Source: a virus
Strand: one strand, 5' to 3'
Length of the DNA stretch: 39,271 bases
IMG/VR virus record: IMGVR_UViG_3300009091_000008
Location: 1 to 39,271 of that record
The stretch's first letter is position 1; each line of letters begins with the position of its first letter. The notes under the pieces are model-generated. The model made no database searches, had not been told where the DNA came from, and saw only the letters and a program-made list of their open reading frames with translations. The position numbers and the translations under genes are program-made. Positions 12,126-39,271 of the stretch are shown here, one piece after another.

Positions 12126-14417
12126 GTGGCCGAACAGAACACAGTACGCACGGTCCTGAAATTCCTGCTGGAAGGCGGGGACGTGCCCGCCGACGTGGCC
12201 AAGCGGTTGGAGCAGCTTGGCCAAAAAGCCAAGGTGGCCCAGCAGGACCTGAAGGGCACCAGCGGCGCCGTCAAAGACCTGGCCGGGCAACTGTCCAGCT
12301 ACCTGGGGGCCGCTGCGGTCGGCGCCTTCGTGAAGTCCGCAGTCTCTGACTTCGCCACCCTGGAACGTACCCTGAATGCCACGTCGGACCAGATGACCCG
12401 CATGGGCCTGGACGGGGGCCGGGCCATCCAGGGTGTCCGCCGGGACCTGGAAGCCCTGGCTGCCGGGGGTGGCCCACTGGTGTCCGAAACCCTGCCGGGC
12501 TTCCAGAAATTCCTGGGCATCACGCAGGACGTGGGCGCGGCCATGGCAGCCACGAAGCTGGCCGCGGATGCTTCGGAGCGTGGCACGCTGGAATACGGGG
12601 CGGCCATGGACGCCGTGGCCCAGCTAATTCAGGGCAGGCCGATGGGCGCGGCCATGGCCCTGAACCTGCAACTGCGTGACCAGTCCGGCCGGTTGAAGAC
12701 GAATGCGGAACTGATGCAGGAAGTGGTGGCCGCGGTGGGCGGCCTGGGGGACGCCTTCCAGGACACCCAGAACAAGCTGGACCAGGCCGGGGCCGGGTGG
12801 GAACGCTTCAAGACGAAGGCCGGGGAAGGGCTGTCCGTGCTGGCCGGGTGGGCGGCCAAGGGGCTGGGCGCCCTGACAACCTACGCCCAGGACCTGGGGG
12901 CATGGTACGGGTTCGTGGTGAACGGGGCCCTGGACGTGGCCCGGAACCTGGGCGAAATCTTCAGCGCGGCGTTTGACCTGAAAAAGCTGGCCACGGATCC
13001 GGGCCAGTGGTGGGCGGACCTGGGGGCGGCCGGGAAAAAGGTCACGGATGACCTGGCCCTGTCCTGGCAGACGCTGACCGAACAGATAGCGGAGAATCAC
13101 CGGGACATAGGGAAGGATGCTGCCACCACGGCCACGGACCTGGAAAAGCTGCTGGCCCAGGCCAGAAAGAAAGCGGCCGCGGAACAGGCAGAGGAAGACA
13201 AGAAGAACGCCGAAAAGCGGATGGAATACGAAGCCCGGGCGGCCCTGGCCCTGGAAGCGGCCAAGGTCAAGGCCACAGAGGAAGGCAGCCAGGCGCGGCT
13301 GGACGCCATGCTGGAAGCCCTGCGGGTGGAACACGAACAGCGGCTGGCCGAAGCCCGCAAGCTGAACGCTGACCTGGCCACGGAAGACCAGCGGTATGCC
13401 CTGGAACGCCTGGCCCTGATAAACCAGTTCCACGCTGCCTGGCTGGCCATCGAAGCGGAGAACGCGAAAGCCCGGGCGGACGCCGAACAGGAAGCCTTCC
13501 TGGAACGCCTGGCGGAACGGAGGGAACAGGCGGGCCTGGCCGTGGAAGCGGAGGGGGAGCGGGAAGACGCGGAGCGGGACGCCAGGTATGCGGACCTGCT
13601 GGACCGGGCGGGAGCCTTCCAGGATCAACTGGCCGCCCTGGACGCGGAAGCCCTGGACACCCGGCGGGAACGGGAACTGGCAGCCGTGGATGCGGAATGG
13701 GAAGACGCCAGGAACCGGGCCCTGGAAGGGGATGCCGCGGCCGCGGAGGAATTGAATAACACCCAGCGGTGGGAAGACCGGAAGGCGGCCGTGGAAGCCC
13801 GGTACGCTGGGGACCGGAAGGCCCTGGAAAAAGGGGTCAAGGAATTCAAGCGGCAGCAGATGATGGAAGGCGCGCAACTGGCCATTGCCAGCCTGCGGAC
13901 CATCTTCGGGAACAGTAAGGGCTTCGCCATCGCGGAAGCCATCATGAACACGTACCAGGGCGCGACCCGGGCCCTGAAGGATTACCCCCAGCCCTATGCC
14001 AGTATCGTGGCGGCCCTGACCATTGCCGCGGGCATGAAACAGGTGGCGGAAATTCGGAAACAGCAGCCCACGGAAGGCAAGGGCTTTGATGACCCGGCTA
14101 ATGATCGGTTGGCGTATCTGGGCGGCCGGAAGTGGGCCACGGACCTGGTGGCCATGGTGGGCCGCGGGTTCCAGGAAGGGGTGAACCTGTCTATGGCTGG
14201 GATGGCGCGGGGCCCGTCCGCGGACGTGCGGATGCCGGACAGCCCCGCACCGGCACCGGCCGTGGTCCAGGCCCCGGGCATCAGCCGGACCGTGGAAGCT
14301 GGTCCACGGGTGGCCCTGAACGTGGGCGTGCTGGTGGCGGACGAGGAAAGCTTGAGGCAACTGAACCGGGAACTGGACCGGGTGGCCGCCCGGGACGAAA
14401 ACAGGCTGGTGGGCTGA
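12126..14417 (+). CDS. Tail tape measure protein
   Basis: GTG start at 12126; the product has 763 residues. The N-terminal half contains Ala/Gly-rich amphipathic segments and a hydrophobic WYGFVVNGALDVA stretch. Residues ~330-590 are a long Glu/Ala/Arg-rich coiled coil. The C-terminal part has AEAIMNTYQGATRALKDYPQ and IVAALTIAAGMKQVAEIRKQ, a hallmark of tape measure proteins. It sets tail length and is ejected with the DNA. At about 1.5 angstrom per residue the tail would be near 115 nm. The stop overlaps the next ATG. Confidence 0.88.
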   Translation: MAEQNTVRTVLKFLLEGGDVPADVAKRLEQLGQKAKVAQQDLKGTSGAVKDLAGQLSSYLGAAAVGAFVKSAVSDFATLERTLNATSDQMTRMGLDGGRAIQGVRRDLEALAAGGGPLVSETLPGFQKFLGITQDVGAAMAATKLAADASERGTLEYGAAMDAVAQLIQGRPMGAAMALNLQLRDQSGRLKTNAELMQEVVAAVGGLGDAFQDTQNKLDQAGAGWERFKTKAGEGLSVLAGWAAKGLGALTTYAQDLGAWYGFVVNGALDVARNLGEIFSAAFDLKKLATDPGQWWADLGAAGKKVTDDLALSWQTLTEQIAENHRDIGKDAATTATDLEKLLAQARKKAAAEQAEEDKKNAEKRMEYEARAALALEAAKVKATEEGSQARLDAMLEALRVEHEQRLAEARKLNADLATEDQRYALERLALINQFHAAWLAIEAENAKARADAEQEAFLERLAERREQAGLAVEAEGEREDAERDARYADLLDRAGAFQDQLAALDAEALDTRRERELAAVDAEWEDARNRALEGDAAAAEELNNTQRWEDRKAAVEARYAGDRKALEKGVKEFKRQQMMEGAQLAIASLRTIFGNSKGFAIAEAIMNTYQGATRALKDYPQPYASIVAALTIAAGMKQVAEIRKQQPTEGKGFDDPANDRLAYLGGRKWATDLVAMVGRGFQEGVNLSMAGMARGPSADVRMPDSPAPAPAVVQAPGISRTVEAGPRVALNVGVLVADEESLRQLNRELDRVAARDENRLVG

Positions 14418-20841: not shown

Positions 20842-20916
20842 TGGTGGCCCCGGCGGGGATCGAACCCGCGTTTCCAGCTTGAAGGGCTGGGGTCCTAACC
20901 GCTAGACCACGGGGCC
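20842..20916 (-). tRNA. tRNA-Glu (anticodon UUC)
   Basis: Read on the minus strand, GGCCCCG pairs with CGGGGCC to form the acceptor stem. The D arm is GTCTAGCGGTTAGGAC, the anticodon stem-loop is CCAGC-CCTTCAA-GCTGG with anticodon TTC (complement at 20881-20883), and the T arm is GCGGG-TTCGATC-CCCGC. The 3' CCA is encoded. It is the only minus-strand gene found and converges on the lysis genes. UUC reads GAA best, and GAA is the favoured Glu codon in this genome, so it probably supports phage translation. Confidence 0.95.
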
Positions 20917-21096: not shown

Positions 21097-21125
21097 TTGA
21101 CTGCCGTGTCACGGCGTGCTACATT
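21097..21125 (+). promoter_or_regulatory. Early promoter P1 with internal palindromic operator
   Basis: TTGACT (21097-21102) and TACATT (21120-21125) are 17 bases apart. The spacer contains GCCGTGTCACGGC, a perfect 6+1+6 palindrome. A protein bound there would cover the space between the two boxes and block or reshape polymerase binding. The expected start site falls on the ATG at 21132. Confidence 0.85.
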
Positions 21126-21131
21126 AGGGGC

Positions 21132-21275
21132 ATGACACAGGAACGTCTGAAACAGATGCGGGAACTGGCGGCGGCCCTGAACGGGATGGCTGACCTGGAA
21201 CGCGGCATCTGTGTGAGGCTGTGGGTGCTGGCGGCCGTATGGTGCGGCTGGTGGGCCCTGTTCCTGCTGGTCTGA
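21132..21275 (+). CDS. Small single-span membrane protein, probably leaderless
   Basis: The product has 47 residues: a polar helical N-terminal half (TQERLKQMRELAAALNGMADLERG) and a C-terminal hydrophobic segment (LWVLAAVWCGWWALFLLV). The ATG lies 6 bases after the -10 box of P1, at the expected transcription start, so the mRNA may begin at the AUG itself. The nearby AGGGG is too close to act as a normal ribosome site. It is the first gene of the early region. Role unknown; small early membrane proteins of phages often modify the host envelope or block superinfection. Confidence 0.6.
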   Translation: MTQERLKQMRELAAALNGMADLERGICVRLWVLAAVWCGWWALFLLV

Positions 21276-22157: not shown

Positions 22158-22186
22158 TTGACTCCCGTGTCACGCGGTGGTACATT
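22158..22186 (+). promoter_or_regulatory. Early promoter P2 with internal operator
   Basis: TTGACT (22158-22163), a 17-base spacer with CCCGTGTCACGCG, and TACATT (22181-22186). The GTG-T-CAC core is intact while the outer arms are imperfect. The predicted start site coincides with the base of the stem-loop at 22193. Confidence 0.85.
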
Positions 22187-23036: not shown

Positions 23037-23065
23037 TTGACAACGGTGTCACGGTGTGATACATT
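23037..23065 (+). promoter_or_regulatory. Early promoter P3 with internal operator
   Basis: TTGACA (23037-23042), a 17-base spacer containing ACGGTGTCACGGT, and TACATT (23060-23065). Its -35 box is a perfect consensus, so it may be the strongest of the set when not blocked. Confidence 0.85.
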
Positions 23066-24263: not shown

Positions 24264-24288
24264 CTACCGTGTCACGCCGTGCTACATT
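24260..24288 (+). promoter_or_regulatory. Early promoter P4 with internal operator
   Basis: TTGACT (24260-24265), a 17-base spacer with ACCGTGTCACGCC, and TACATT (24283-24288). The -35 box overlaps the last codon of the metallohydrolase gene. No terminator is seen between P3 genes and P4, so the P3 transcript may read through. Confidence 0.85.
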
Positions 24289-25475: not shown

Positions 25476-25977
25476 CGGCAAGCTGTCGGCCGCGGATCTT
25501 CGGTTCCTGCGGCACCTGCTGGATGGGGGCCGGGCTGTGATGACGCCCGGCCACGGCCTGGGCGTGTACCACCCGTCAGGGGTGCGCTACGGCCTGTCCG
25601 GCACGTACCCCTACAAGCTGTCCCAGCGGGGCCTGGTGGCCGTGGGGGGCCTGCTGGACGGCCAGCGGGCCGTAGCCCTGACCCCGGACGGGGCCCTAGT
25701 GGCGGAAGCCCACCAGCACACCACGGCCCTGCCGGATGCAGCCCTGAACCTGCTGGACCACCTGGCCCGTGGCCGCCTGGCCTGGGTGGGCCTGGGCGGG
25801 AAGCTGTGGCTGGCTGGCAAGCTGTCAGGCCATCTGGCCCCGGCCATGGTGGCCCTGCTGGACGCGGGCTATGCCCAGGTGATGGACCCGGATATGCCCA
25901 GGTGTCCTGACCGGCGGGTGCTGCTGACCACGGCGGGCCGCCGGTTCTATCACGACCTGACCACCGTATCGTCTTGA
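25468..25977 (+). CDS. Early hypothetical protein, possible winged-helix
   Basis: The product has 169 residues and starts at ATG 25468, inside the end of the preceding gene. It seems to hold two similar halves. LSAADLRFLRHLLDGGRAV...YPYKLSQRGLVAVGG...VALTPDGALVAE is followed by LPDAALNLLDHLARGRLAW...APAMVALLDAGYAQVM...VLLTTAGRRFYHDL. Each half runs helix-helix-hairpin and then a short LT-x-x-G segment, the style of winged-helix folds with a final 'LTPxG' strand. DNA binding is possible but not shown. Its stop codon overlaps the -35 box of P5. Confidence 0.5.
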   Translation: MRDGKLSAADLRFLRHLLDGGRAVMTPGHGLGVYHPSGVRYGLSGTYPYKLSQRGLVAVGGLLDGQRAVALTPDGALVAEAHQHTTALPDAALNLLDHLARGRLAWVGLGGKLWLAGKLSGHLAPAMVALLDAGYAQVMDPDMPRCPDRRVLLTTAGRRFYHDLTTVSS

Positions 25978-26013
25978 CGTGCCACGGGGCTGGAAGTATA
26001 ACGGCGTGACACG
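25974..26013 (+). promoter_or_regulatory. Promoter P5 with two operators
   Basis: TTGACG (25974-25979), a 17-base spacer and TATAAC (25997-26002). One palindrome core, CGTGCCACG, overlaps the -35 box (25978-25986). A second, CGTGACACG, covers the start site (26005-26013). This is the only member of the family with two cores, and its -10 box is nearest consensus. The double site suggests tight, possibly auto-regulated control of the gene behind it. Confidence 0.75.
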
Positions 26014-26029
26014 GGCCCGCTGCGGGCCC
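26013..26029 (+). promoter_or_regulatory. Leader hairpin of P5
   Basis: GGGCCCG (26013-26019), loop CTG, CGGGCCC (26023-26029), directly after the second operator and before GGGAGG. It is another stem-loop close to the 5' end of an early transcript. Confidence 0.5.
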
Positions 26030-26046
26030 TGGATGGGAGGAATGCC

Positions 26047-26277
26047 ATGGGGAAGATGGGGACCAGGCCGGTGGTTTTTGGCAGCCACCTGCCACTGCGC
26101 GTGGATGATGCCAAGCTGAAGGAAGTGGAGCGGGTCCAGGCGGACGTGGCGCGGGACCGCAGCTATACGGTCCGCTATCTGCTGGACCTGGGGCTGGCCC
26201 AGCATCGGGCCCGGATGCAGAAACGGGCCGCGGACCGCGCCTATCAGGCCCGGAAGCGGTCCACCGGGCGGGTGTGA
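26047..26277 (+). CDS. Ribbon-helix-helix-like protein, candidate operator-binding repressor
   Basis: The product has 76 residues with a GGGAGG ribosome site. VVFGSHLPLRVDDAKLKEVERV begins with a possible beta strand and a first helix; ARDRSYTVRYLLDLGLAQHRA fits the turn and second helix of Arc/MetJ/CopG-type repressors. The C-terminal tail is very basic (ARMQKRAADRAYQARKR). Such dimers bind short palindromes. It lies directly behind P5, whose two GTGNCAC palindromes would allow self-control. It is my first choice for the protein that reads the operators of the early promoter family; this link is inference. Confidence 0.55.
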   Translation: MGKMGTRPVVFGSHLPLRVDDAKLKEVERVQADVARDRSYTVRYLLDLGLAQHRARMQKRAADRAYQARKRSTGRV

Positions 26278-26504
26278 TGGTGGGACGGGGGGACACGTCC
26301 AGCCGGGCCCGGGTCAACGTCACCCTGCTGGGCAAGGTGCTGGGGGAGAAATTCGCGTCCCGCCTGCCGGAAGACGTGCGGCGGCACTACCAGGACCACC
26401 CCGAACACCTGGGGCCGGACCTGAAGCTGGTGGCCCTTTACTGCGTGCTGATTGTGGAACTGGGCGTGGCCATCGCACTGCTGGCCGCCTGGGCCGTGAA
26501 CTGA
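26277..26504 (+). CDS. Small C-tail-anchored membrane protein
   Basis: The start is ATG 26277, in a TGATG overlap with the previous stop (a GTG one codon earlier is also possible); the product has 75 residues. A polar N-terminal part (SSRARVNVTLLGKVLGEKFASRLPEDVRRHY) precedes one C-terminal membrane segment (LVALYCVLIVELGVAIALLAAW). It is coupled to the exonuclease gene by a further TGATG. Function unknown. Confidence 0.55.
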   Translation: MVGRGDTSSRARVNVTLLGKVLGEKFASRLPEDVRRHYQDHPEHLGPDLKLVALYCVLIVELGVAIALLAAWAVN

Positions 26505-28184: not shown

Positions 28185-28210
28185 CGCCACGTGCCACGTG
28201 GTGTTACATT
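28181..28210 (+). promoter_or_regulatory. Early promoter P6 with perfect 15-base palindrome
   Basis: TTGACG (28181-28186) and TACATT (28205-28210) are 18 bases apart. The spacer starts with CCACGTGCCACGTGG (28187-28201), a perfect 7+1+7 palindrome and the longest in the family. The leader is only about 13 bases, and the ribosome site GGGGGA lies almost at the 5' end. Confidence 0.85.
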
Positions 28211-28229: not shown

Positions 28230-28709
28230 ATGAAAAGAACCGGAACGCGGGTCCTGACCTTGGCCGAAGCGGCCGCCCGGTCGGGACTGTCCAAAGCCAC
28301 CCTGAACCGTGCAGCCAAGCTGGGGGGCCTGCCAGCCACCCGGATTCCAGGCGGCCACCTGGACTGGATGGTAAGGGCCCGGGACGTGGACGCCTTTGTC
28401 AAGGCCAGGGGCGCCAGGAAGCGGAAGGCCCGTGGCGGCGGACCTGAACTGGGGCAGGCAAACAGTCTGCCATTCCAGGACCCCTGGAAGGGGAAGGTCA
28501 AGAAGCTGGACCCGGCCCCGGTGCCCGCGCCCGGCCAGGACGTGCGGCTGGTGACGGTCGGCGGGTTCCAGGAACGGGTGGACCTGACGGACCGGGCGGC
28601 CCGGAACCTGGGGATGCTGAAACACTGGACGGCCGCGCCCACGGCCGAAGTCCTGGATGCGGCCCTGGTGGCCCTGGCCCGGGAACTGGGCCTGCACGGG
28701 GTGGAGTGA
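28230..28709 (+). CDS. HTH regulator, excisionase/MerR-like N terminus
   Basis: ATG 28230 is chosen because it follows GGGGGACACGAAG and the upstream in-frame ATG lies before the -10 box; the product has 159 residues. VLTLAEAAARSGLSKATLNRAAKLGGLPATRIPGGHLDWMVRARDVDAFV is a winged HTH of the excisionase/MerR kind. A basic linker (KARGARKRKARGGG) and a second small domain (FQERVDLTDRAARNLGMLKHW, VLDAALVALAREL) follow. It is the second candidate, after the ribbon-helix-helix protein, for control of the early promoters. No integrase is present, so excision is unlikely to be its job. Confidence 0.68.
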   Translation: MKRTGTRVLTLAEAAARSGLSKATLNRAAKLGGLPATRIPGGHLDWMVRARDVDAFVKARGARKRKARGGGPELGQANSLPFQDPWKGKVKKLDPAPVPAPGQDVRLVTVGGFQERVDLTDRAARNLGMLKHWTAAPTAEVLDAALVALARELGLHGVE

Positions 28710-31405: not shown

Positions 31406-31642
31406 ATGACCAGGGAAATACGGCTGACGAAGAAACAGGGGGCCAGGTTCCTGAAGGGCCACCGCACGGAAACCACCAGGCGCGTGGTGGTGATGGTGGA
31501 CGGCCTGACCACCCGGACGGCCCGGGCTTCGGCCAAGCTGCCGCCGGACGTGGCCCAGGCACTGGCAGACCACCTGGCCCTGGAAATGGACGCCTGGCTG
31601 AAAATGGACGCCTGGCTGTCCACCCCGCGGAAACAGCCTTGA
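31406..31642 (+). CDS. Small early protein with internal duplication
   Basis: The product has 78 residues; ATG 31406 follows GGGGGCAGACC. A basic N terminus (TREIRLTKKQGARFLKGHRTETTRR) precedes a VVVMVDGL strand, a helix (PPDVAQALADHLALEMDAWL) and a tandem copy of MDAWL caused by an 18-base duplication. The stop codon overlaps the -35 box of P7. Function unknown. Confidence 0.55.
   Translation: MTREIRLTKKQGARFLKGHRTETTRRVVVMVDGLTTRTARASAKLPPDVAQALADHLALEMDAWLKMDAWLSTPRKQP
31584..31618 (+). repeat. In-frame 18-base tandem duplication
   Basis: AAATGGACGCCTGGCTG occurs at 31584-31600 and again at 31602-31618, an offset of exactly 18 bases. It adds six codons without a frameshift. The copies are identical, so the event is probably recent. 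Confidence 0.85.
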
Positions 31643-31668
31643 CAGACGGTGGCACGCCGTCATACGTT
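31639..31668 (+). promoter_or_regulatory. Early promoter P7 with internal operator
   Basis: TTGACA (31639-31644), an 18-base spacer with GACGGTGGCACGCCGTC, and TACGTT (31663-31668). The core is GTG-G-CAC. The outer arms GACGG and CCGTC pair, but the inner part is less regular than in P1 or P6. The predicted start is close to 31674, just before the shared initiation site. Confidence 0.75.
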
Positions 31669-32099: not shown

Positions 32100-32410
32100 C
32101 ACCCGCCCGGCTGGCTGCCCTGCGGCTGCTGCGGGATGAAGGGCCCCTGACAGCATCCTGGCTGGCCTTCCGGCTGTGGGGGAAGCCAGGCGCGGCCGGT
32201 TCCCAGGCGCGGCGGGCGTGGGTGCTGTCTGCCGGAGCCTACCTGGGCAAGCTGCGGGCAGCCCACCTGGCCAGGAAGAATGCCGCCAGCGGCCAGTGGA
32301 CCCTGACGCAGCACGGCCAGGACTGCCTGGCCCATGCTGAACTGGACCTGCTGACCAGGGCCCTGGCGAGTTTCAAAACGTCAAAAACTACACACCAGAA
32401 CGGGGGGTGA
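32096..32410 (+). CDS. Small winged-helix-like protein
   Basis: The product has 104 residues and starts in the ATGA overlap at 32096. ARLAALRLLRDEGPLTASWLAFRLWG, ARRAWVLSAGAYLGKLRAAHLARK and SGQWTLTQHGQDCLAHA follow the helix-helix-wing order of a winged HTH ending in a 'WxLTxxG' strand. The C-terminal tail is polar. DNA binding is likely but not certain. It follows the zinc-finger gene on the P7 transcript. Confidence 0.55.
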   Translation: MTPARLAALRLLRDEGPLTASWLAFRLWGKPGAAGSQARRAWVLSAGAYLGKLRAAHLARKNAASGQWTLTQHGQDCLAHAELDLLTRALASFKTSKTTHQNGG

Positions 32411-32413
32411 AGG

Positions 32414-32623
32414 ATGCCGGGGGCATGGTGGTGGCTGACCGTCTGGCTGGCGGCGGCCGGGCTGTTCTACGTGGCCGGGGTGGCCTTCAAGTCCAGCAGC
32501 GGTGAAACGCCCAGCGGAAGCTGGGTTCTACTCTGGTCTGCCGTCTGCCTGGCCTGGCCCTGGACCATGGGGCTGACCGTGGTGGGCTTCGTGCTGGGCG
32601 TGACGGCCAGACGGAGGGGGTGA
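32414..32623 (+). CDS. Small two-span membrane protein
   Basis: The product has 69 residues. Two hydrophobic segments (WWWLTVWLAAAGLFYVAGVAF and LLWSAVCLAWPWTMGLTVVGFVLG) flank a short polar turn (KSSSGETPSGS); the C terminus is basic (TARRRG), which suggests both ends face the cytoplasm. It starts three bases after the preceding stop. A superinfection-exclusion or accessory-holin role is possible but unproven. Confidence 0.55.
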   Translation: MPGAWWWLTVWLAAAGLFYVAGVAFKSSSGETPSGSWVLLWSAVCLAWPWTMGLTVVGFVLGVTARRRG

Positions 32624-32626
32624 CCT

Positions 32627-33013
32627 GTGCGGCGGAAGCGGCAGCGGATGTTGGAAGCCACAGGGAAGCTGGACCGGAACCGGGAACCGGACCCGGCATC
32701 CAGGTTCCTGGACGGGGTGGCCCTAGACTTCAACCTGGCAGTGGATGGGCTGGACCGGGTGCGGGTGCTGCTGGGCGCAAAGCCCCACGTTCGCTGCCTG
32801 GTCCGGACGGAATACCATCCTGGCAGGACCATGATGGACCAGAACGCCGTCCGGGTGGGCTGGGGCAGCAGGTGGACGGACTGGCTGGGCTGGGCCCTAT
32901 TTCAGCCCCTGGAATGGGGCGTGGAACGTCCGGTGGCTTTGGCCTGGCGGGCCTGGAAGCGTGTCCAGGGCATGTTCCACGTGGAACGCCAGGCGGAAGG
33001 GGGCCAGCCATGA
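32627..33013 (+). CDS. Early hypothetical protein
   Basis: GTG 32627 follows GGAGGGGGTGACCT; the product has 128 residues. The start is very basic (RRKRQRMLEATGKLDRNR), then a helix (FLDGVALDFNLAVDGLDRVRVLL). A Trp-rich stretch (VGWGSRWTDWLGWALFQPLEWG) could lie on the membrane surface. It ends WKRVQGMFHVERQAEGG and overlaps the next ATG by four bases. Function unknown. Confidence 0.5.
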   Translation: MRRKRQRMLEATGKLDRNREPDPASRFLDGVALDFNLAVDGLDRVRVLLGAKPHVRCLVRTEYHPGRTMMDQNAVRVGWGSRWTDWLGWALFQPLEWGVERPVALAWRAWKRVQGMFHVERQAEGGQP

Positions 33014-33396
33014 CTGGCGCGGAGGAACGGGCCGCACGGGTGGAGTGGGGGAACATCCCCATTGCCTTCCGCCCTGAGTGGGAATCGTACTGGCTGGGCT
33101 GGCAGGCCCGCGCCGCCCGCGCCGGGAAGGGGCCATACACCTTCGACTGTGACGCCGAAGTGATCCGCGATGCAGACGGGATCATCGTCCAGTGGAAGGA
33201 GATCCTTGCTTGCCTCAACGCCCGCGCCGGGGGTGAGCAGGCCATCGTGGAGGCGGCGCGGCGGATCAGCCCCGACGAGTGGCGCATAGCAGTCCATGAA
33301 GCGGAAGGCGAGTCGCGGACGATAGCTAGCAAGCTGCGCGCCCTCGCCTCCGCCGTGGAGGCCCAGCCCGCCCCGCCACGCGAGGGGAAGCCGTGA
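33010..33396 (+). CDS. Chimeric-looking small protein with atypical codon use
   Basis: The product has 128 residues. The first ~42 (TGAEERAARVEWGNIPIAFRPEWESYWLGW) use codons like the rest of the phage. From about 33140 the style changes: Glu becomes mostly GAG (7 of 10), CTC appears, and Arg is often CGC. The second part (CDAEVIRDADGIIVQWKEILACL, AIVEAARRISPDEWRIAVHEAEGESRTIASKLRALASAVE) is helical, with no known motif. The change points to recent import of the 3' part, from the host or another phage. The stop overlaps the next ATG. Confidence 0.55.
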   Translation: MTGAEERAARVEWGNIPIAFRPEWESYWLGWQARAARAGKGPYTFDCDAEVIRDADGIIVQWKEILACLNARAGGEQAIVEAARRISPDEWRIAVHEAEGESRTIASKLRALASAVEAQPAPPREGKP

Positions 33397-33647
33397 TGCG
33401 GCCGACCCGTGTTCCCCAGCCAGTGGTTTTCATAGCCCACCTGATTGATGCCCTGCGGCATCCTGGGGAATCCAGACTACATGCCGCGGAACGGACGCTG
33501 CTAGAGGAAGCCCTGTGGACCGCCCGGGGCTGCCAGCAGGCCGCGGCTGAAGACCTGGGCATCAGCCCCAGGGTCATGAATTACAAGCTGGGCAAGCGGG
33601 CCATGCGCCCGAAGGATAGAAAGCCCACCACGCCAGTGGACAACTGA
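33396..33647 (+). CDS. Fis-type HTH protein
   Basis: The product has 83 residues; ATG 33396 follows GAGGGGAAG and overlaps the previous stop. The C-terminal half ERTLLEEALWTARGCQQAAAEDLGISPRVMNYKLGKRAMRPKD matches the Fis/NtrC-type DNA-binding helix-turn-helix (an 'AA..LGIS.r....KL' core). The N-terminal part is short and has no receiver or ATPase domain. It is probably a small DNA-bending or regulatory protein, perhaps for late genes. Promoter P8 lies across its stop codon. Confidence 0.68.
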   Translation: MRPTRVPQPVVFIAHLIDALRHPGESRLHAAERTLLEEALWTARGCQQAAAEDLGISPRVMNYKLGKRAMRPKDRKPTTPVDN

Positions 33648-33680
33648 CAGGCATGGGCGTATGTTACACGCCGTGACACG
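33637..33680 (+). promoter_or_regulatory. Promoter P8 with operator at the start site
   Basis: TGGACA (33637-33642), 17 bases, TATGTT (33660-33665). The palindrome core CGTGACACG (33672-33680) sits at the expected start site, in inverted orientation relative to P1-P4. A GGGGC-GGAC-GCCCC stem-loop (33684-33697) follows in the leader. It serves the operon of secreted and membrane proteins. Confidence 0.55.
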
Positions 33681-33708
33681 TAAGGGGCGGACGCCCCGGG
33701 AGGGTTCC

Positions 33709-34164
33709 ATGCTGAAGGTGCTGCGGTTCTGCCAGGTGGCCATGGCGGCCCTGACCGTGCTGCTGGTGCTGTTCGCCATGCCGGGCCTGGCCGTGGCGGA
33801 CCGCCTGCTGGCAGGCCCGCCTGGGCCCGTGCCCAACATCAGGGTGACTGTGCCGGACCCTGACCAGGGCCCGGACCCGCGGCCTGGGCGCGTGCCGGAT
33901 CCTATCGTGGTGCCCTGGTCGGAAGCATCCCTGATGGGGGCCTGTGATGACTCCGTGGACTGCGCCACGGCGCTGCGGTCCTGGTGCATTTTGGACGACA
34001 AAGGCAAGTCCCACGGGACCGGGACGAAGCGTGTCTATTTTGACAAAACCAGCGACGAAAAATGTCACGGGGAATGCGAGGATTCCACGCCCGTAAGGGT
34101 CGAATGCCTGGAACCGAAGCCCCCGCCGCCCCTTCCGAAGCCGAAGCCGCAGGCCGGGCTATGA
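33709..34164 (+). CDS. Secreted Cys-containing protein
   Basis: ATG 33709 follows GGGAGGGTTCC; the in-frame ATG at 33661 lies within the promoter and is rejected. The product has 151 residues. A signal peptide (MLKVLRFCQVAMAALTVLLV plus LFAMPGLAVA) precedes a Pro-rich linker with a repeated PDP/GPDP pattern. The compact domain has six Cys (GACDDSVDCATALRSWC, KCHGECED, VECLEPK) and ends in a Pro/Lys tail. It is probably a disulfide-bonded periplasmic or extracellular protein. Function unknown; neighbours are also exported. Confidence 0.55.
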   Translation: MLKVLRFCQVAMAALTVLLVLFAMPGLAVADRLLAGPPGPVPNIRVTVPDPDQGPDPRPGRVPDPIVVPWSEASLMGACDDSVDCATALRSWCILDDKGKSHGTGTKRVYFDKTSDEKCHGECEDSTPVRVECLEPKPPPPLPKPKPQAGL

Positions 34165-34508
34165 GACTCCGCAACTGGCTGAACGTGGACCTGGTGGAAG
34201 CCCTGGCCCTGGTGGGCCTGCTGTGCGTTGCCATGCTGCTGGCCGTGCCCATCGCCGTCCTGCTGGGCGGCCTGCTGGGCGGCCAGGCCCCAGCGGCTGC
34301 TGCGGCGCCTGCCGTGGCCCTGCCGGGTGACCCGCCTCTGGTGCTGGGGGCCCTGGTGGTAATCATCCCATCGGAAGAACGCGGCGTGGTGGAAGGGCTG
34401 ATGCTGACCAGCCACGACGAACCCCAGGCCCTGGTGGTCTACAAGAACGCCCAGCGGGTGGCCGTGCGGCAGTGGTGGCCGCGGCACCTGCTGGCCCTGA
34501 CGGACTGA
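34161..34508 (+). CDS. Signal-anchored membrane protein
   Basis: The product has 115 residues and starts in the ATGA overlap. A long hydrophobic stretch (ALALVGLLCVAMLLAVPIAV, continuing through LLGGLLGG) anchors it. An Ala-rich linker and a small beta domain follow (PLVLGALVVIIPSEERGVVEGLML, ALVVYKNAQRVAVRQWW), probably outside the cytoplasm. Function unknown. Confidence 0.55.
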   Translation: MRLRNWLNVDLVEALALVGLLCVAMLLAVPIAVLLGGLLGGQAPAAAAAPAVALPGDPPLVLGALVVIIPSEERGVVEGLMLTSHDEPQALVVYKNAQRVAVRQWWPRHLLALTD

Positions 34509-34512
34509 TGTA

Positions 34513-34725
34513 GTGGCCAGGCGGGAGCCTTCAACCGCAAGGCGGCGGGACGGCGGGTTAGACCTGGGAAGCCTTCCCCGCTGTGGCACCTGCCTGGCCC
34601 ACTACCTTCCGGAATTCGAAGACGGGCCGCCCCAGGCCCGGGCGATGGTTGGCAAGCTGGAACTGGACGGCGTGACCCCGCATGTATGCCGGGGCCACCT
34701 GCCCCACGGGAGGAACGAACCATGA
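34513..34725 (+). CDS. Small zinc-finger-like protein
   Basis: GTG start at 34513; the product has 70 residues. A basic N terminus (ARREPSTARRRDGG) precedes LPRCGTCLAHYLPEF and, ~30 residues later, VCRGHLPHG. CxxC plus CxxH is a likely single zinc site. There is no signal peptide, unlike the neighbours. It overlaps the next gene by four bases. Function unknown. Confidence 0.5.
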   Translation: MARREPSTARRRDGGLDLGSLPRCGTCLAHYLPEFEDGPPQARAMVGKLELDGVTPHVCRGHLPHGRNEP

Positions 34726-35015
34726 CCACGAAGCTGACCCTGGTGCTGATGCTGCTGGCAGTGTGCCTGTCCGGCTGTTCCGGTTCGGACCAGGTGGTGG
34801 GCACGGAGCCTGTGCCCACGGAGCGGGTGACCTGTCCCGCTGTCAAGGTGGGGGACCTGGTGGCGTACACGGGCCCGGATGGCGGCCGGGAACCCATGGC
34901 CACTGTCCTGGCTGACCGATACAACTGCCGCCTGGACCTGCTGGCCGGGAAGTACGGCCTAAAGCGTTACGTGTCCTATTCGGCCAAGCCCATCCCGAAC
35001 ACCTGGGCCCGATAG
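34722..35015 (+). CDS. Small lipoprotein
   Basis: The product has 97 residues and starts in the ATGA overlap at 34722. A short signal peptide ends in a lipobox (LLAVCLSGC followed by Ser-Gly-Ser), so signal peptidase II should cut before that Cys and attach lipid. The mature part has two more Cys and beta-like segments (VKVGDLVAYTGPDGGREPMATVLADRYNC). Phage lipoproteins often block superinfection at the envelope or act as outer-membrane spanins; being far from the lysis genes makes exclusion the more likely role. Confidence 0.62.
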   Translation: MTTKLTLVLMLLAVCLSGCSGSDQVVGTEPVPTERVTCPAVKVGDLVAYTGPDGGREPMATVLADRYNCRLDLLAGKYGLKRYVSYSAKPIPNTWAR

Positions 35016-35044
35016 AACGCCCCCGGAGCGGGGCTAAAGGAGCG

Positions 35045-35707
35045 ATGATGGCTGGAAAGAAAATCCTGTGTGCCCTGATTCTGCTGGTGGCCGCGCTTCC
35101 TGTGGCAGCGGAGGAAGTCATGCTTCCCCAGCCCGCGCCTGGCCAGGTCTACTCTGATTTTATCGAAGGCCCGGACTGGGACGGCATGAGCATTTACACG
35201 ATCAACGAATACCCCAGCTATGAAACCATCCTGGACGTGCTGGACGGCGGGGTCACGTATCTGCTGAAGGTCACGGTGCCGTTCTACCGGGATCCCCACG
35301 ACCAGTTCCTGATGGACTGGAACGCTGCCATCGTGAACTATGACGGACAGTGCCTTCCGGATGATGACGCCTGCGAAACGTGGGTGGAGCTTCAGTGCAG
35401 CTTGCACCGGCCCTATGACCAGACCACTTCGGCGTCCGTCGCGTACTACTCTGCAAGGCCGTCCACGACGGGCGACTGCAAGGCCACCTGTAAATATGAG
35501 AACGTAAACCATCAGACACGCACTATCGAAGTGGAAGCGGACTGCTGGCCGCTGGACCCGCCCTATCACCAGATGGAAACGGAATGCCAGGCCCAGCCCA
35601 TCCCGGACTTTTGCCCGGTGTGTACGGCGAACCCTATGAGTTGCGCGTGCCAGGGGTGCGTGGGACCGGACAACCTGGATGACCCCCACTGTCCGTCTGG
35701 CTGCTGA
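35045..35707 (+). CDS. Secreted Cys-rich protein
   Basis: The product has 220 residues from ATG 35045 (ATG 35048 is equally possible); AAAGGAGCG is a good ribosome site. A signal peptide (KKILCALILLVAALPVAA, then EE) starts the protein. The mature part has a mixed beta region (MSIYTINEYPSYETILDVLDGG, LKVTVPFYRD) and about fourteen Cys, mostly in the last 100 residues (CKATCKYE, CPVCTANPMSCACQGCVG). Several disulfides or a metal site are likely. It is the last gene before a strong hairpin. Function unknown. Confidence 0.55.
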   Translation: MMAGKKILCALILLVAALPVAAEEVMLPQPAPGQVYSDFIEGPDWDGMSIYTINEYPSYETILDVLDGGVTYLLKVTVPFYRDPHDQFLMDWNAAIVNYDGQCLPDDDACETWVELQCSLHRPYDQTTSASVAYYSARPSTTGDCKATCKYENVNHQTRTIEVEADCWPLDPPYHQMETECQAQPIPDFCPVCTANPMSCACQGCVGPDNLDDPHCPSGC

Positions 35708-35724
35708 ACGTCCGTAAAAAGACC

Positions 35725-35752
35725 GGGGCTGGGGACCCCCGCCCCCAGCCCC
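35725..35752. terminator. Strong hairpin at the end of the early region
   Basis: GGGGCTGGGG (35725-35734) pairs perfectly with CCCCAGCCCC (35743-35752) around an 8-base loop. A run of five As precedes it (35716-35720), so it has a U-tract only on the minus strand; on the plus strand it would act as a stem without U-tract. It separates the exported-protein operon from the packaging genes. Confidence 0.6.
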
Positions 35753-35776
35753 ACCACCCCACGGGAAGGGACACGC

Positions 35777-35805
35777 CTAACCTGGCGGAAGACTAGGGCT
35801 ATAGT
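35777..35805 (+). promoter_or_regulatory. Candidate promoter of the packaging genes
   Basis: TATAGT (35800-35805) is a good -10 box; CTAACC (35777-35782) is a weak -35 box at 17 bases. There is no GTGNCAC palindrome, as in the lysis promoter. A weak -35 box suggests that an activator is needed, which would suit late expression. Confidence 0.45.
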
Positions 35806-35840
35806 GGCCCCGGGTCAAGGGCTTCCCTGGGGGAAGTGCC

Positions 35841-35987
35841 ATGCCGCTGCTGGTGGGGGTGGTCTTCGGCGTGCTGTTCGTCCTGCTGGCGGGCAGCCTG
35901 CTGGCATGGCGGCCAGACACCAGGCGGCACGGGGGAGTAGAATCCAGCCATGGGAATGAAGGCCAGGAAGACCAGGGCGAAGCGTAA
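35841..35987 (+). CDS. 48-residue membrane protein overlapping the small terminase
   Basis: ATG 35841 follows CTGGGGGAAGTGCC. The product is one hydrophobic segment (LLVGVVFGVLFVLLAGSLLAW) and a polar, acidic tail. The last 38 bases overlap the small terminase gene in another frame. The good ribosome site and membrane segment favour a real gene. It may be a holin-like or head-tether protein; the function is unknown. Confidence 0.5.
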   Translation: MPLLVGVVFGVLFVLLAGSLLAWRPDTRRHGGVESSHGNEGQEDQGEA

Positions 35988-36474
35988 GGGGAAGGCGGAC
36001 CAGCCGAAACGGTCGGGCCCAGGCCGCCCCACGAAGCGGACCCCAGAACTGGACGGCATCCTGTATGGCGCCCTGGCCCACGGTGCCACGGATGACGAAG
36101 CGGCCACCTTGGCAGGCATCTGCCGGAAGACGCTGCACACCTGGCGGAAGGATGACCCTGACCTGGAAGAACACCTGTCCGCGGCCAAGGCGCGGGCGGA
36201 CCACCGGGTGCAGGACACGCTTTTCAAGCTGGCCACGGGTCAGGTGGTGGTCCAGGACGTGCCCCACGTCACGAAGCTGGGCACTGTCATTCTGGTGGAC
36301 GAACCCCAGGCCCCCAGCTATCCGGCCATCCGCCTGTGGCTGACGAACCGGATGCCGGAAGACTGGCGGGACCGGGTGACCCTGGAAGGGGACCCGAACC
36401 GGCCGGTGGAAGTCACGGTGACGGAGCGGCCCTGGGTGGACACGCCCGCGGATGGGGAGGGCACGGGGGACTAG
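35950..36474 (+). CDS. terS: Small terminase subunit
   Basis: The product has 174 residues. A very basic start (KARKTRAKRKGKADQPKRSGPGRPTK) leads to a helix-turn-helix (GILYGALAHGATDDEAATLAGICRKTLHTWRK) that should bind the packaging site. A helical core (DLEEHLSAAKARADHRVQDTLFKLATG) follows, then a terminase-like PSYPAIRLWLTNRMPEDWRD segment. It recognises phage DNA and regulates the large subunit. It ends directly before the GTG of the large terminase. The ribosome site is weak and distant, so coupling with the overlapping small gene is plausible. Confidence 0.8.
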   Translation: MGMKARKTRAKRKGKADQPKRSGPGRPTKRTPELDGILYGALAHGATDDEAATLAGICRKTLHTWRKDDPDLEEHLSAAKARADHRVQDTLFKLATGQVVVQDVPHVTKLGTVILVDEPQAPSYPAIRLWLTNRMPEDWRDRVTLEGDPNRPVEVTVTERPWVDTPADGEGTGD

Positions 36475-37785
36475 GTGAAGCCCGCCCGCAGGGTGGAACT
36501 GGTCCTGCCTGGGCTGTTCCCGTGGCAGCAGGAATTCCGCCGCCTGGTCAGTGAGTCTTCGGCCACGTTCATTCTGGTGGCCGTGGGCCGCCGGGCCGGG
36601 AAGACCACCGGCCTGACCCGCATTGCCGGGGACCTGACCATCGGCGGCCGGTTCCGCCTGGGCGGCCAGGACCGGGTGGAACGGGGGACCGTGTTCTGGG
36701 GGGCGCCCACCTATGACCTTTCCTTCATAGCCCGTGAACTATTTCAAGAATGGTACGGGCGCCTGATACGGAAGTCCGAAAACGAACGGCCGCGGGATCG
36801 GATGCTGTCCGGGGGGTCCGTCCTGTGGCGGTCTTTCGACCGGGAGGGGGGCAGCCTGGGCCGCGGGTTCCACGTGTCCGTGATAGAGGAAGCGGCCCGG
36901 GTGAAGGGGACGCAGGTTTACGAAGAACTGCTGATGACGGCCGCCGACCGGAAGGGCAAGCTGGTGGCCATCACCACCCCCCGGGGTCAGTCCCACTGGA
37001 CCCATGACTGGTACAGGAAGGCCCGGGACGGACACCCGGATTACGCCTGCATCCACGGGCCCAGCACCCAAAACCCCATGCCCCAGGTCCGGGACTTCAT
37101 ACGGGTGGCCAGGGAAACCATGCCGGATCACCTGTTCCGGCAGGAAGTCCTGGCGGAATTCATACCTGGGGAGGGTGGCGTCTTCCGCAACATCGTGGCC
37201 TGTTCCAGCCTGGCGGGGTATCACCAGGCGCCGCCTGGGCTGGGCCGCCGCTACATCATCGGCTGTGACGTGGCCAAGCATCAGGACTGGACCGTGATGT
37301 ATGCCCTGGACGTGGACACAGGCGAAGTCCACGGCGTGGACCGCTTCCAGCACTGCCCCTGGCCGCTGGTAGAGGAACGCATCCGGACATTCCACCTGAC
37401 CTGGAACCGGGGCACCGTCTTCCTGGACAGCACGGGAGTGGGGGACGCCGTGTATGACCACCTGGTGGAAAAGGGGGTCCCGTGCGTTCCGGTGGTCTGG
37501 TCTTCAGCATCCAAAGACGTGCTGGTGATGCGCCTGGCCCTGGCCCTCGAACGGGGCGCCATTGCCTTCCCAGCGGATGACATATTGACGGGGGAGCTTG
37601 AAACATACCACTATGACATTTCAGCCACTGGGCGGTTCCGCTATACTGCCCCAGACGGAAAACATGATGACTGCGTGGCTGCACTGGCCCTGGCCGTCTA
37701 TGGGCGCCACCACCGGACGCCAGGCGACCTGTGGACGCAGCACCTGGCGGGCCTGCTGGCCCAGCAGCCGCATCCTGGCACGTAG
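36475..37785 (+). CDS. terL: Large terminase subunit (ATPase-nuclease)
   Basis: GTG start directly after the small subunit; the product has 436 residues, normal for the family. Walker A is VGRRAGKTT (37-45) and Walker B is VSVIEEA (134-140), with the catalytic Glu following. The coupling motif is AITTPRG (165-171). The RNase-H-like nuclease has Asp265 in IIGCDVAKHQD, Asp318 in VFLDSTGVGD and Asp398/399 in KHDDCVAALALA. It cuts concatemers and pumps DNA into the head through the portal. All key residues are present. Confidence 0.95.
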   Translation: MKPARRVELVLPGLFPWQQEFRRLVSESSATFILVAVGRRAGKTTGLTRIAGDLTIGGRFRLGGQDRVERGTVFWGAPTYDLSFIARELFQEWYGRLIRKSENERPRDRMLSGGSVLWRSFDREGGSLGRGFHVSVIEEAARVKGTQVYEELLMTAADRKGKLVAITTPRGQSHWTHDWYRKARDGHPDYACIHGPSTQNPMPQVRDFIRVARETMPDHLFRQEVLAEFIPGEGGVFRNIVACSSLAGYHQAPPGLGRRYIIGCDVAKHQDWTVMYALDVDTGEVHGVDRFQHCPWPLVEERIRTFHLTWNRGTVFLDSTGVGDAVYDHLVEKGVPCVPVVWSSASKDVLVMRLALALERGAIAFPADDILTGELETYHYDISATGRFRYTAPDGKHDDCVAALALAVYGRHHRTPGDLWTQHLAGLLAQQPHPGT

Positions 37786-37804
37786 CAGCACGGGGGGCTA
37801 GAGA

Positions 37805-39271
37805 ATGGCCAAGCGTCCAGCCGGGGTCCAGTCCGTCCAGTCCCTGGGCGATATGGTGCGGGCCCTGCTGGGGGGCGTGATGCCCCAGGCCGATACCAGC
37901 GGCCGCCTTCAGATGCAGCCCCCGCCCCTGGATGCGTCCACGCCCCAGGGGACGGACCCCCGCAGCTTCGTGGCCGCCATGGGGGCCAACCTGGTGCCCA
38001 GCCCCCGCACGAACACGGGCGGGGACCTGACGGCCTTTGACACGCTGAAGGCCCTGGCCGCCTTTGACCTGGTGCGGGTGGTAATTGAAGACGTGAAGGG
38101 CCAGATTCTGGGGATGACCCCGGAAGTGGTCACGAAACAGGGCCACGAAAAAGCCCCCGGGATTGAAGAACAGATGGCCACGGCCCAGCGGTGGCTGGCC
38201 TGGCCTGACCCCCTGGCCGGGCTGGGCTGGCGCGACTGGTGCAGCCAGGTCCTGGAAGAAATCCTGGTGACCGATGCCCTAACCCTGCTGCCGCGGTACA
38301 CCCGGGGCGGGGAGTTTATCGGGACGGAACAGGTGGACGGGTCCACTATCGTCTGCCTGGTGGACGAACGGGGCCGCCCCCCGCTGCCCCCGCGGGCCGC
38401 CTATCAGCAGGTGGTGCTGGGCGTCCCAGAGACTGAATTCCAGATAGGGGAACTGCTGTACCTGCCGTCCACCCGGCGGCCGGATAGCCCGTATGGCCGT
38501 TCCAAAGTGGAATCCGTAATCTGGACCGTGAACCTGGCCCTGCGTCAAACGGCCGCGGACCTGGCCTATTTTACGGATGGCAACCTGCCGGACGGCGGCC
38601 TGTATGGCGTGCCGGAATCCTGGACACCCCCCCAGATAGCAGAATTCCAGCGGCTGTGGAATGACCTGCTGTCCGGGAACACTGCCATGCGGTCCGGCCT
38701 GCGGTTCGTGCCCCCCGGCACGTACCACGCCACGAAGGACCGCGCCTGGTCCTACGAACAGGTGGAGTGGCTGTCCCGCGTGATTGCCTGGGGCTTCGGG
38801 GTCAGCCCTATGCCCATCGCCAAACAGATGAACCGTTCCACTTCGGAAGTCCAGGAACAGTCCACCACGGAATCCGGGGTCCGCCCGGTGACCCTGTTCC
38901 TGGCGTCCGTGGGGACACGGGTTCTGAACCTGTGCGCCGGGTGCCCGGACGTGGAACTGGTCTACCCCGTGGACAAGACGGAAGACCCCACGGTGACCTA
39001 TCAGCGGGGCATCCAGCAGGTCCACGGTGGCGTCAAAACCGTGAACGAAGAACGGAAGCTGCACGGCCTGGACCCCTATCCTTTCGACGTGCCGCCCTTC
39101 CTGGTGACGCCCGCCGGGCCCGTGTTCCTGGAAGACCTGGTGACCGGGCGGGAAGCTGAACAGCAGGCCCGCCTGGCGGCGGCCGAAGCATCGGCGGCAG
39201 GCGCGGAAGCGGCAGCCCAGGCCGTGGAACCGGAGGAACCGGAGGAACCGGAGGAACCGGAGGAAGTGGAA
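37805..39271 (+). CDS. Portal protein, N-terminal part of the portal-MuF fusion (runs off the window)
   Basis: ATG 37805; 489 codons to the edge with no stop, continuing in frame at position 38 on the left. Portal features are clear: AAFDLVRVVIEDVKGQILGM, WCSQVLEEILVTDALTLLPRY, LYLPSTRRPDSPYGRSKVESV, and a stem/clip-like region with VEWLSRVIAWGFGVSPMPIAKQMNRS. The dodecameric portal is the DNA gate of the head. The C terminus becomes Ala/Glu-rich and then a Glu-Pro-Glu repeat that links to the MuF domain. In most phages portal and MuF are separate genes, and no stop or start separates them here. Confidence 0.9.
   Translation, partial: MAKRPAGVQSVQSLGDMVRALLGGVMPQADTSGRLQMQPPPLDASTPQGTDPRSFVAAMGANLVPSPRTNTGGDLTAFDTLKALAAFDLVRVVIEDVKGQILGMTPEVVTKQGHEKAPGIEEQMATAQRWLAWPDPLAGLGWRDWCSQVLEEILVTDALTLLPRYTRGGEFIGTEQVDGSTIVCLVDERGRPPLPPRAAYQQVVLGVPETEFQIGELLYLPSTRRPDSPYGRSKVESVIWTVNLALRQTAADLAYFTDGNLPDGGLYGVPESWTPPQIAEFQRLWNDLLSGNTAMRSGLRFVPPGTYHATKDRAWSYEQVEWLSRVIAWGFGVSPMPIAKQMNRSTSEVQEQSTTESGVRPVTLFLASVGTRVLNLCAGCPDVELVYPVDKTEDPTVTYQRGIQQVHGGVKTVNEERKLHGLDPYPFDVPPFLVTPAGPVFLEDLVTGREAEQQARLAAAEASAAGAEAAAQAVEPEEPEEPEEPEEVE
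39235..39271. repeat. Terminal direct repeat, right copy
   Basis: Identical to positions 1-37. With one copy removed, the molecule is 39,234 bases. One further GGAACCGGA unit precedes this copy on the right, so the true unit number is uncertain. Confidence 0.9.

Follow-up and report, generated by a model that had tools for sequence, protein, structure and literature searches.

The described systems that appear, by analogy, to stand closest to the locus reported here are F55 of the Sulfolobus virus SSV1, SvtR, AmrZ, RelB and Arc. P22, a tailed phage, encodes the small ribbon-helix-helix (RHH) repressors Arc and Mnt; Arc binds as a pair of dimers and has an early-to-late shut-off role, and both proteins act at one locus, whereas eight dispersed promoters are concerned here. 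F55 is a 6.3-kDa RHH dimer whose binding sites, as far as they are described in PMC5569661, are tandem repeats at its own promoter as well as at several early ones. It shares with the present case the small size, the viral origin, the RHH class and the position of its sites, which overlap core promoter elements (PMC5569661). F55 belongs, according to the same description, to an archaeal lysogenic virus with archaeal promoters and ATAGATAG tandem repeats, whereas the present virus is a tailed phage whose promoters are of the sigma-70 type and in which no integrase was recognised. In its logic F55 appears to be the nearest system; the locus reported here would be its counterpart in a tailed phage, with promoter-embedded operators. 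SvtR of SIRV1 binds at three viral sites besides its own promoter, and its main site is described as lying about 80 nt from promoter elements (PMC5569661), whereas the sites reported here lie inside promoters. AmrZ of Pseudomonas aeruginosa is likewise described as an RHH protein that represses its own gene via two promoter sites, with two short half-sites per operator, but it is a bacterial regulator of 108 aa with the half-site GGC (PMC3325190) and not GTGNCAC. In E. coli, relO is occupied by two RelB dimers on the same face, each on a palindromic half-site, whose hexad core [A/T]TGT[A/C]A resembles the GTG/CAC heptads of this phage; the differences, as far as PMC2812701 describes RelB, are half-sites of 12 bp (10-bp spacing here), an antitoxin with a toxin as co-repressor, and control of one operon.

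The DNA analysed (the window, 39,271 nt) is the whole of the IMG/VR virus record IMGVR_UViG_3300009091_000008 and carries an exact 37-bp terminal repeat at its ends. Circularity is likely rather than proven, because the stretch that holds this repeat is rich in GGAACCGGA. The window has genes for head, tail, endolysin and terminase functions. The early region (20.9-35.7 kb) encodes a YqaJ-like exonuclease, a replication-initiator-like protein and a RecT-like protein, the last label being an annotation carried by several database matches. A PHROG search with 49 proteins (thresholds 0.001 to 1), which did not take in the portal gene, the large terminase or the small genes 21288 and 28706, recognised no integrase, and the lysogeny functions expected of a temperate-phage immunity repressor (integrase or plasmid maintenance) were not found here. 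The protein encoded at 28230-28709 is excisionase-like and stands in a genome with no recognised integrase. A tRNA-Glu gene (20842-20916, minus strand) lies at the boundary of the late and early regions, just upstream of P1. A 78-aa protein encoded at 31406-31642 has a weak match to the BetI/TetR C-terminal domain (E 2.6e-4, below the Pfam cut-off) and has no DNA-binding part.

Eight promoters of the early region carry one composite operator (Table 1). The operator is 17 bp long and reads GTGNCAC-N3-GTGNTAC, with the two heptads 10 bp apart; the CGTGNCACG core is only half of it. When the six promoters with a forward site (P1-P4, P6 and P7) are aligned on the -10 hexamer, the centre of GTGNCAC is constantly 11 bp upstream of it, with spacers of 17 and 18 nt alike, and the GTGNTAC heptad 10 bp further on extends into the -10. 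In these six the operator lies in the -35/-10 spacer, while at P5 and P8 it is reversed and lies across the -10 and the start site. P8 had not been listed in the earlier note and was found independently by a promoter scan. Most early-region genes stand behind the eight promoters, including an array of small genes with no assigned function, the genes for the YqaJ-like exonuclease, the RecT-like protein and the replication initiator, and a membrane-protein-like gene.

Table 1. Promoters, operators and candidate regulator genes in the window.
Feature	Position	Strand	Details
Operator in P1 spacer	21103..21122	+	P1 = TTGACT 21097, TACATT 21120
Operator in P2 spacer	22164..22183	+	P2 = TTGACT 22158, TACATT 22181
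Operator in P3 spacer	23043..23062	+	P3 = TTGACA 23037, TACATT 23060
Operator in P4 spacer	24266..24285	+	P4 = TTGACT 24260, TACATT 24283
Promoter P5	25974..26002	+	TTGACG 25974-25979, 17-nt spacer, TATAAC 25997-26002
Lone palindromic core CGTGCCACG	25978..25986		End of P5 -35 box; by eye, no partner heptad at 10-bp distance on either side
Composite operator O5, reversed	25996..26015	-	Heptad GTTATAC over P5 -10, heptad GTGTCAC over inferred start site
Proposed repressor gene, RHH protein, 76 aa	26047..26277	+	GGAGG ahead of ATG; phrog_4738 match
Gene for protein with winged-helix-like C-terminal domain, 166 aa	27684..28184	+	Weak Pfam/PHROG HTH hits; rival DNA binder
Operator in P6 spacer	28188..28207	+	P6 = TTGACG 28181, TACATT 28205; ahead of HTH_17 gene
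Gene for HTH_17/excisionase-like protein, 159 aa, behind P6	28230..28709	+	Pfam HTH_17 E 5.1e-9; phrog_66 E 1.9e-9; TIGR01764 E 1.7e-5
Operator in P7 spacer	31646..31665	+	P7 = TTGACA 31639, TACGTT 31663; heptad kept, extended -10 TG absent
Gene for Fis-type HTH_8 protein, 84 aa	33393..33647	+	Pfam HTH_8 E 9.1e-8; rival DNA binder
Operator at P8, reversed as at P5	33663..33682	-	P8 = TGGACA 33637-33642, 17-nt spacer, TATGTT 33660-33665

A weight matrix was built from the six forward sites and scanned on both strands; the scores of these six are high by construction. The leave-one-out scores were 21.5 (P1), 21.5 (P2), 21.9 (P3), 25.0 (P4), 13.4 (P6) and 18.5 bits (P7), so that P6, taken alone, is unconvincing. 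Both reversed sites were held out of the matrix and recovered, that of P5 at 23.9 bits (none of 1000 simulations reached even 21.8) and that of P8 at 18.3 bits (a score reached in 21 of 1000). By sequence, the same composite site is thus present at the promoter of the proposed repressor gene and at seven other viral promoters, as in systems of the F55 and SvtR kind. A further CGTGGCACG core was found inside a late-region gene (12577-12596); its score of 15.0 bits is within the simulated background, and it is probably due to chance. The mRNA from P1 is apparently leaderless, with an ATG at 21132 about 7 nt past the -10 (21120-21132), opening a 47-codon frame with a membrane-like segment. Of the 10 copies of the sequence GGGGGACAC, 8 stand just before a start codon, all of them in the early region (21278, 22223, 23098, 24324, 24767, 28217, 30059 and 31679), which suggests a recurring ribosome-binding leader or translational control element. 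Hairpins between start site and start codon were sought by folding five leaders, and these folded no better than shuffled sequences (z -1.67 to +0.29).

The operator has dyad axes at columns 7, 12 and 17, where the three-base arm pairs match in 100, 88 and 67% of cases across the eight sites; eight-base arms peak at column 12, with 70% matching. It consists of two subsites, each with a local symmetry of its own, that lie roughly one turn apart under an overall dyad, as in a tandem-dimer operator. The first heptad is a perfect palindrome in 8/8 sites, and columns G14, T15, A19 and C20 are conserved in all eight. Reading the second heptad as a mere extended -10 (TGN) was found to be insufficient: P7 (GTCATAC) has no TG, and P5 and P8 have the heptad on the opposite strand. 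The second heptad is probably more than an extended -10, an argument that is strong and not absolute, as its conservation partly coincides with -10 bases. The nested symmetry fits two adjacent RHH dimers, since palindromic subsites and an overall dyad occur together; a single helix-turn-helix (HTH) dimer does not require such symmetry.

Three DNA-binding genes are present besides the RHH gene and count against assigning the operators to it. One of them encodes the HTH_17 protein of 159 aa, which carries a clear HTH domain, matches a family (phrog_66) labelled both excisionase and transcriptional regulator, and is itself encoded behind an operator-bearing promoter, P6, where the perfect local palindrome is the longest of the set (15 bp). 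If this protein were the repressor, its dimer would read GTNNCACGNCGTGNNAC, an inverted repeat of 17 bp whose half-sites are one turn apart, as the match of eight-base arms around column 12 would allow, and the RHH protein would have another role. A single HTH dimer, however, accounts neither for the perfect palindrome of the first heptad in all eight sites nor for the isolated palindromic heptad that overlaps the end of the P5 -35 box, and this explanation is considered unlikely.

The promoter P5, which precedes the RHH gene, was described in the earlier note as the only one with two palindrome cores, one over the -35 box and one over the start site. This was borne out: the window contains 8 copies of CGTGNCACG, where 1.45 are expected (no order-1 Markov simulation of 1000 reached 8), and the only pair within 40 bp is formed by the P5 cores at 25978 and 26005, which are 27 bp apart. 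The first core shares only the last two bases of the -35 hexamer, and the rest of this core falls in the spacer. The second (26005-26013) sits over the inferred start site and is half of the 20-column composite operator O5, which overlaps the P5 -10 and was also picked up as an inverted repeat of the P2 site. The P5 -10 ends in C and not in T, in keeping with the overlapping operator column. The extra core at the -35 box is the one feature unique to P5, the reversed layout being shared with P8. The proposal that a double operator as such marks the repressor gene is not supported, because P8 repeats the reversed layout and P6, ahead of the HTH gene, has the longest palindrome.

The RHH gene has a GC3 of 0.84. 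Its product had been described as a small RHH-like protein with a basic tail, and both attributes are supported: the C-terminal third is basic, and residues 13-54 match positions 6-57 of the 59 of phrog_4738 (transcriptional repressor; E 3.1e-5 among 38,880 families). In a search of the whole genome it was the only match to phrog_4738 (E 7.3e-7). The profile itself, searched in 149 genomes, recognises NikR/CopG proteins that carry Pfam RHH_1. Of the 10 phrog_4738 loci fetched, 9 were read (one with an internal stop was left out), and 5 of these gave an RHH frame (the remaining 4 had been read on the wrong strand and were dropped); a Pfam scan of 3 of the 5 frames found RHH_1 in all three and also NikR_C in one. 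The 76-aa protein aligns with the RHH_1 proteins over the strand, helix A and the R-S pair at the start of helix B, and has, via phrog_4738, the strand-helix-helix profile of the class. The loop before helix 2 reads D37-R38-S39; the S of the G-X-S/T/N motif described for RHH proteins (PMC2812701, as far as consulted) is present and the G is absent. None of the families of Pfam (including RHH_1) and NCBIfam recognised the protein. A home-made profile of five RHH sequences ranked its frame first of 541, but at 4.3 bits, a score reached by 50 of 5000 shuffled sequences (4005 scored). AlphaFold2, run on the single sequence with no alignment, predicted a strand (17-20) followed by one unbroken helix (21-73) with a pTM of 0.41, and Foldseek found no match of this model to a PDB structure at E <= 0.001; the model says little about the fold and is not relied on here. 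An alignment-based PDB search found structures of NikR, HicB and CopG; these matches are not independent evidence, because the search profile is dominated by other rows.

RHH proteins often serve as antitoxins and repress the operon that encodes them, as PMC2812701 describes for RelB, and the gene at 26274-26504, which overlaps the stop codon of the RHH gene, encodes a small product that by eye resembles a membrane protein. The RHH protein might accordingly be a purely local regulator of its own promoter, for instance in a toxin-antitoxin or membrane-protein pair with the 26274-26504 product, with a regulator of similar motif acting at the other sites. This is very unlikely, as P5 and the other seven promoters share one composite operator sequence and the 26274-26504 product matches no Pfam or PHROG family.

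No relatives of the 76-aa protein were found in IMG/VR, in a phage collection (DNA and protein) or among plasmids. The gene was absent, by tblastn or a meaningful phmmer score, from 80 distant phage loci collected by terminase alignment, and a search of 297 genomes gave one hit, inside a 619-aa frame. Queries with the RecT-like and YqaJ-like proteins found no relatives either. One 5,976-bp contig, IMGVR_UViG_3300006224_000690, is 99.97% identical to positions 32117-38091 over 5,975 bases (2 mismatches); apparently derived from the same phage, it adds nothing but an identical P8 sequence. Searches with the operator patterns found no relative sharing the operator in viral contigs or genome contigs. 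The hits obtained were unrelated promoters, of which five were one repeated sequence (contigs of 46-48% GC) and four lack the extended operator. As no relative with the operator was found, the assignment of the protein to the operators rests on fold class, geometry and gene position.

Another proposal is that the operators are bound by a host factor, which would tie early phage transcription to the physiology of the host, and that the RHH protein is unrelated to them. The promoters resemble ordinary sigma-70 promoters, and regulators of the host are candidates. Against this, the combined promoter and operator pattern gave only 4 scattered hits, all with no extended operator, in a collection of 84,980 species genomes that may not include the host, and only 2 of 297 genomes (from the phylum of one chance hit, which again may not include the host) matched at up to 2 mismatches. 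A host factor is regarded as quite improbable.

The explanation preferred here, and probably the correct one, is that two dimers of the RHH protein sit on each operator and keep RNA polymerase off all eight promoters, including that of the RHH gene itself, which would be autorepressed. The 76-aa protein is the most likely master switch because its own promoter and at least seven other early-region promoters share the two-part mark. The reading as master repressor proposed in the earlier note thus gained from the RHH call and from the operator with nested dyads common to eight promoters, and lost the double operator as its marker. Operators, operator geometry and the match to an RHH-type profile are observations; the binding, repression, autoregulation and timing described in the following are inferred. 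Two RHH dimers would occupy each operator and exclude RNA polymerase. At P1-P4, P6 and P7 the bound operator would fill the -35/-10 spacer and touch the -10; at P5 and P8 it would span the -10 to the start site. The lone core beside the P5 -35 box may provide a third contact, by which the repressor would limit its own synthesis. Since the eight promoters precede most early-region genes, the protein would turn off the early region, either in the late phase of infection or, should the phage have one, in a carrier state. A shut-off from early to late expression is at least as likely as a function in lysogeny or immunity, because no integrase was recognised among the 49 proteins.

It is tentatively suggested that, in a tailed phage with no recognisable lysogeny genes, one 76-aa RHH protein runs an early regulon of at least eight promoters via a modular two-dimer operator, which lies forward in the spacer at some promoters and, reversed, over the -10 and the start site at others, and so forms a bacterial counterpart of F55 that serves as a timing switch and not for immunity. 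No report of a multi-promoter RHH regulon in a tailed phage was recognised in the open-access papers searched. The eight matched promoters make the repressor claim directly testable with one purified protein. If the claim is true, the two operator orientations would be natural test pairs for the blocking of RNA polymerase by RHH dimers, and a tailed phage would have its early promoters under the coordinated control of a very small repressor whose class usually serves a single operon.
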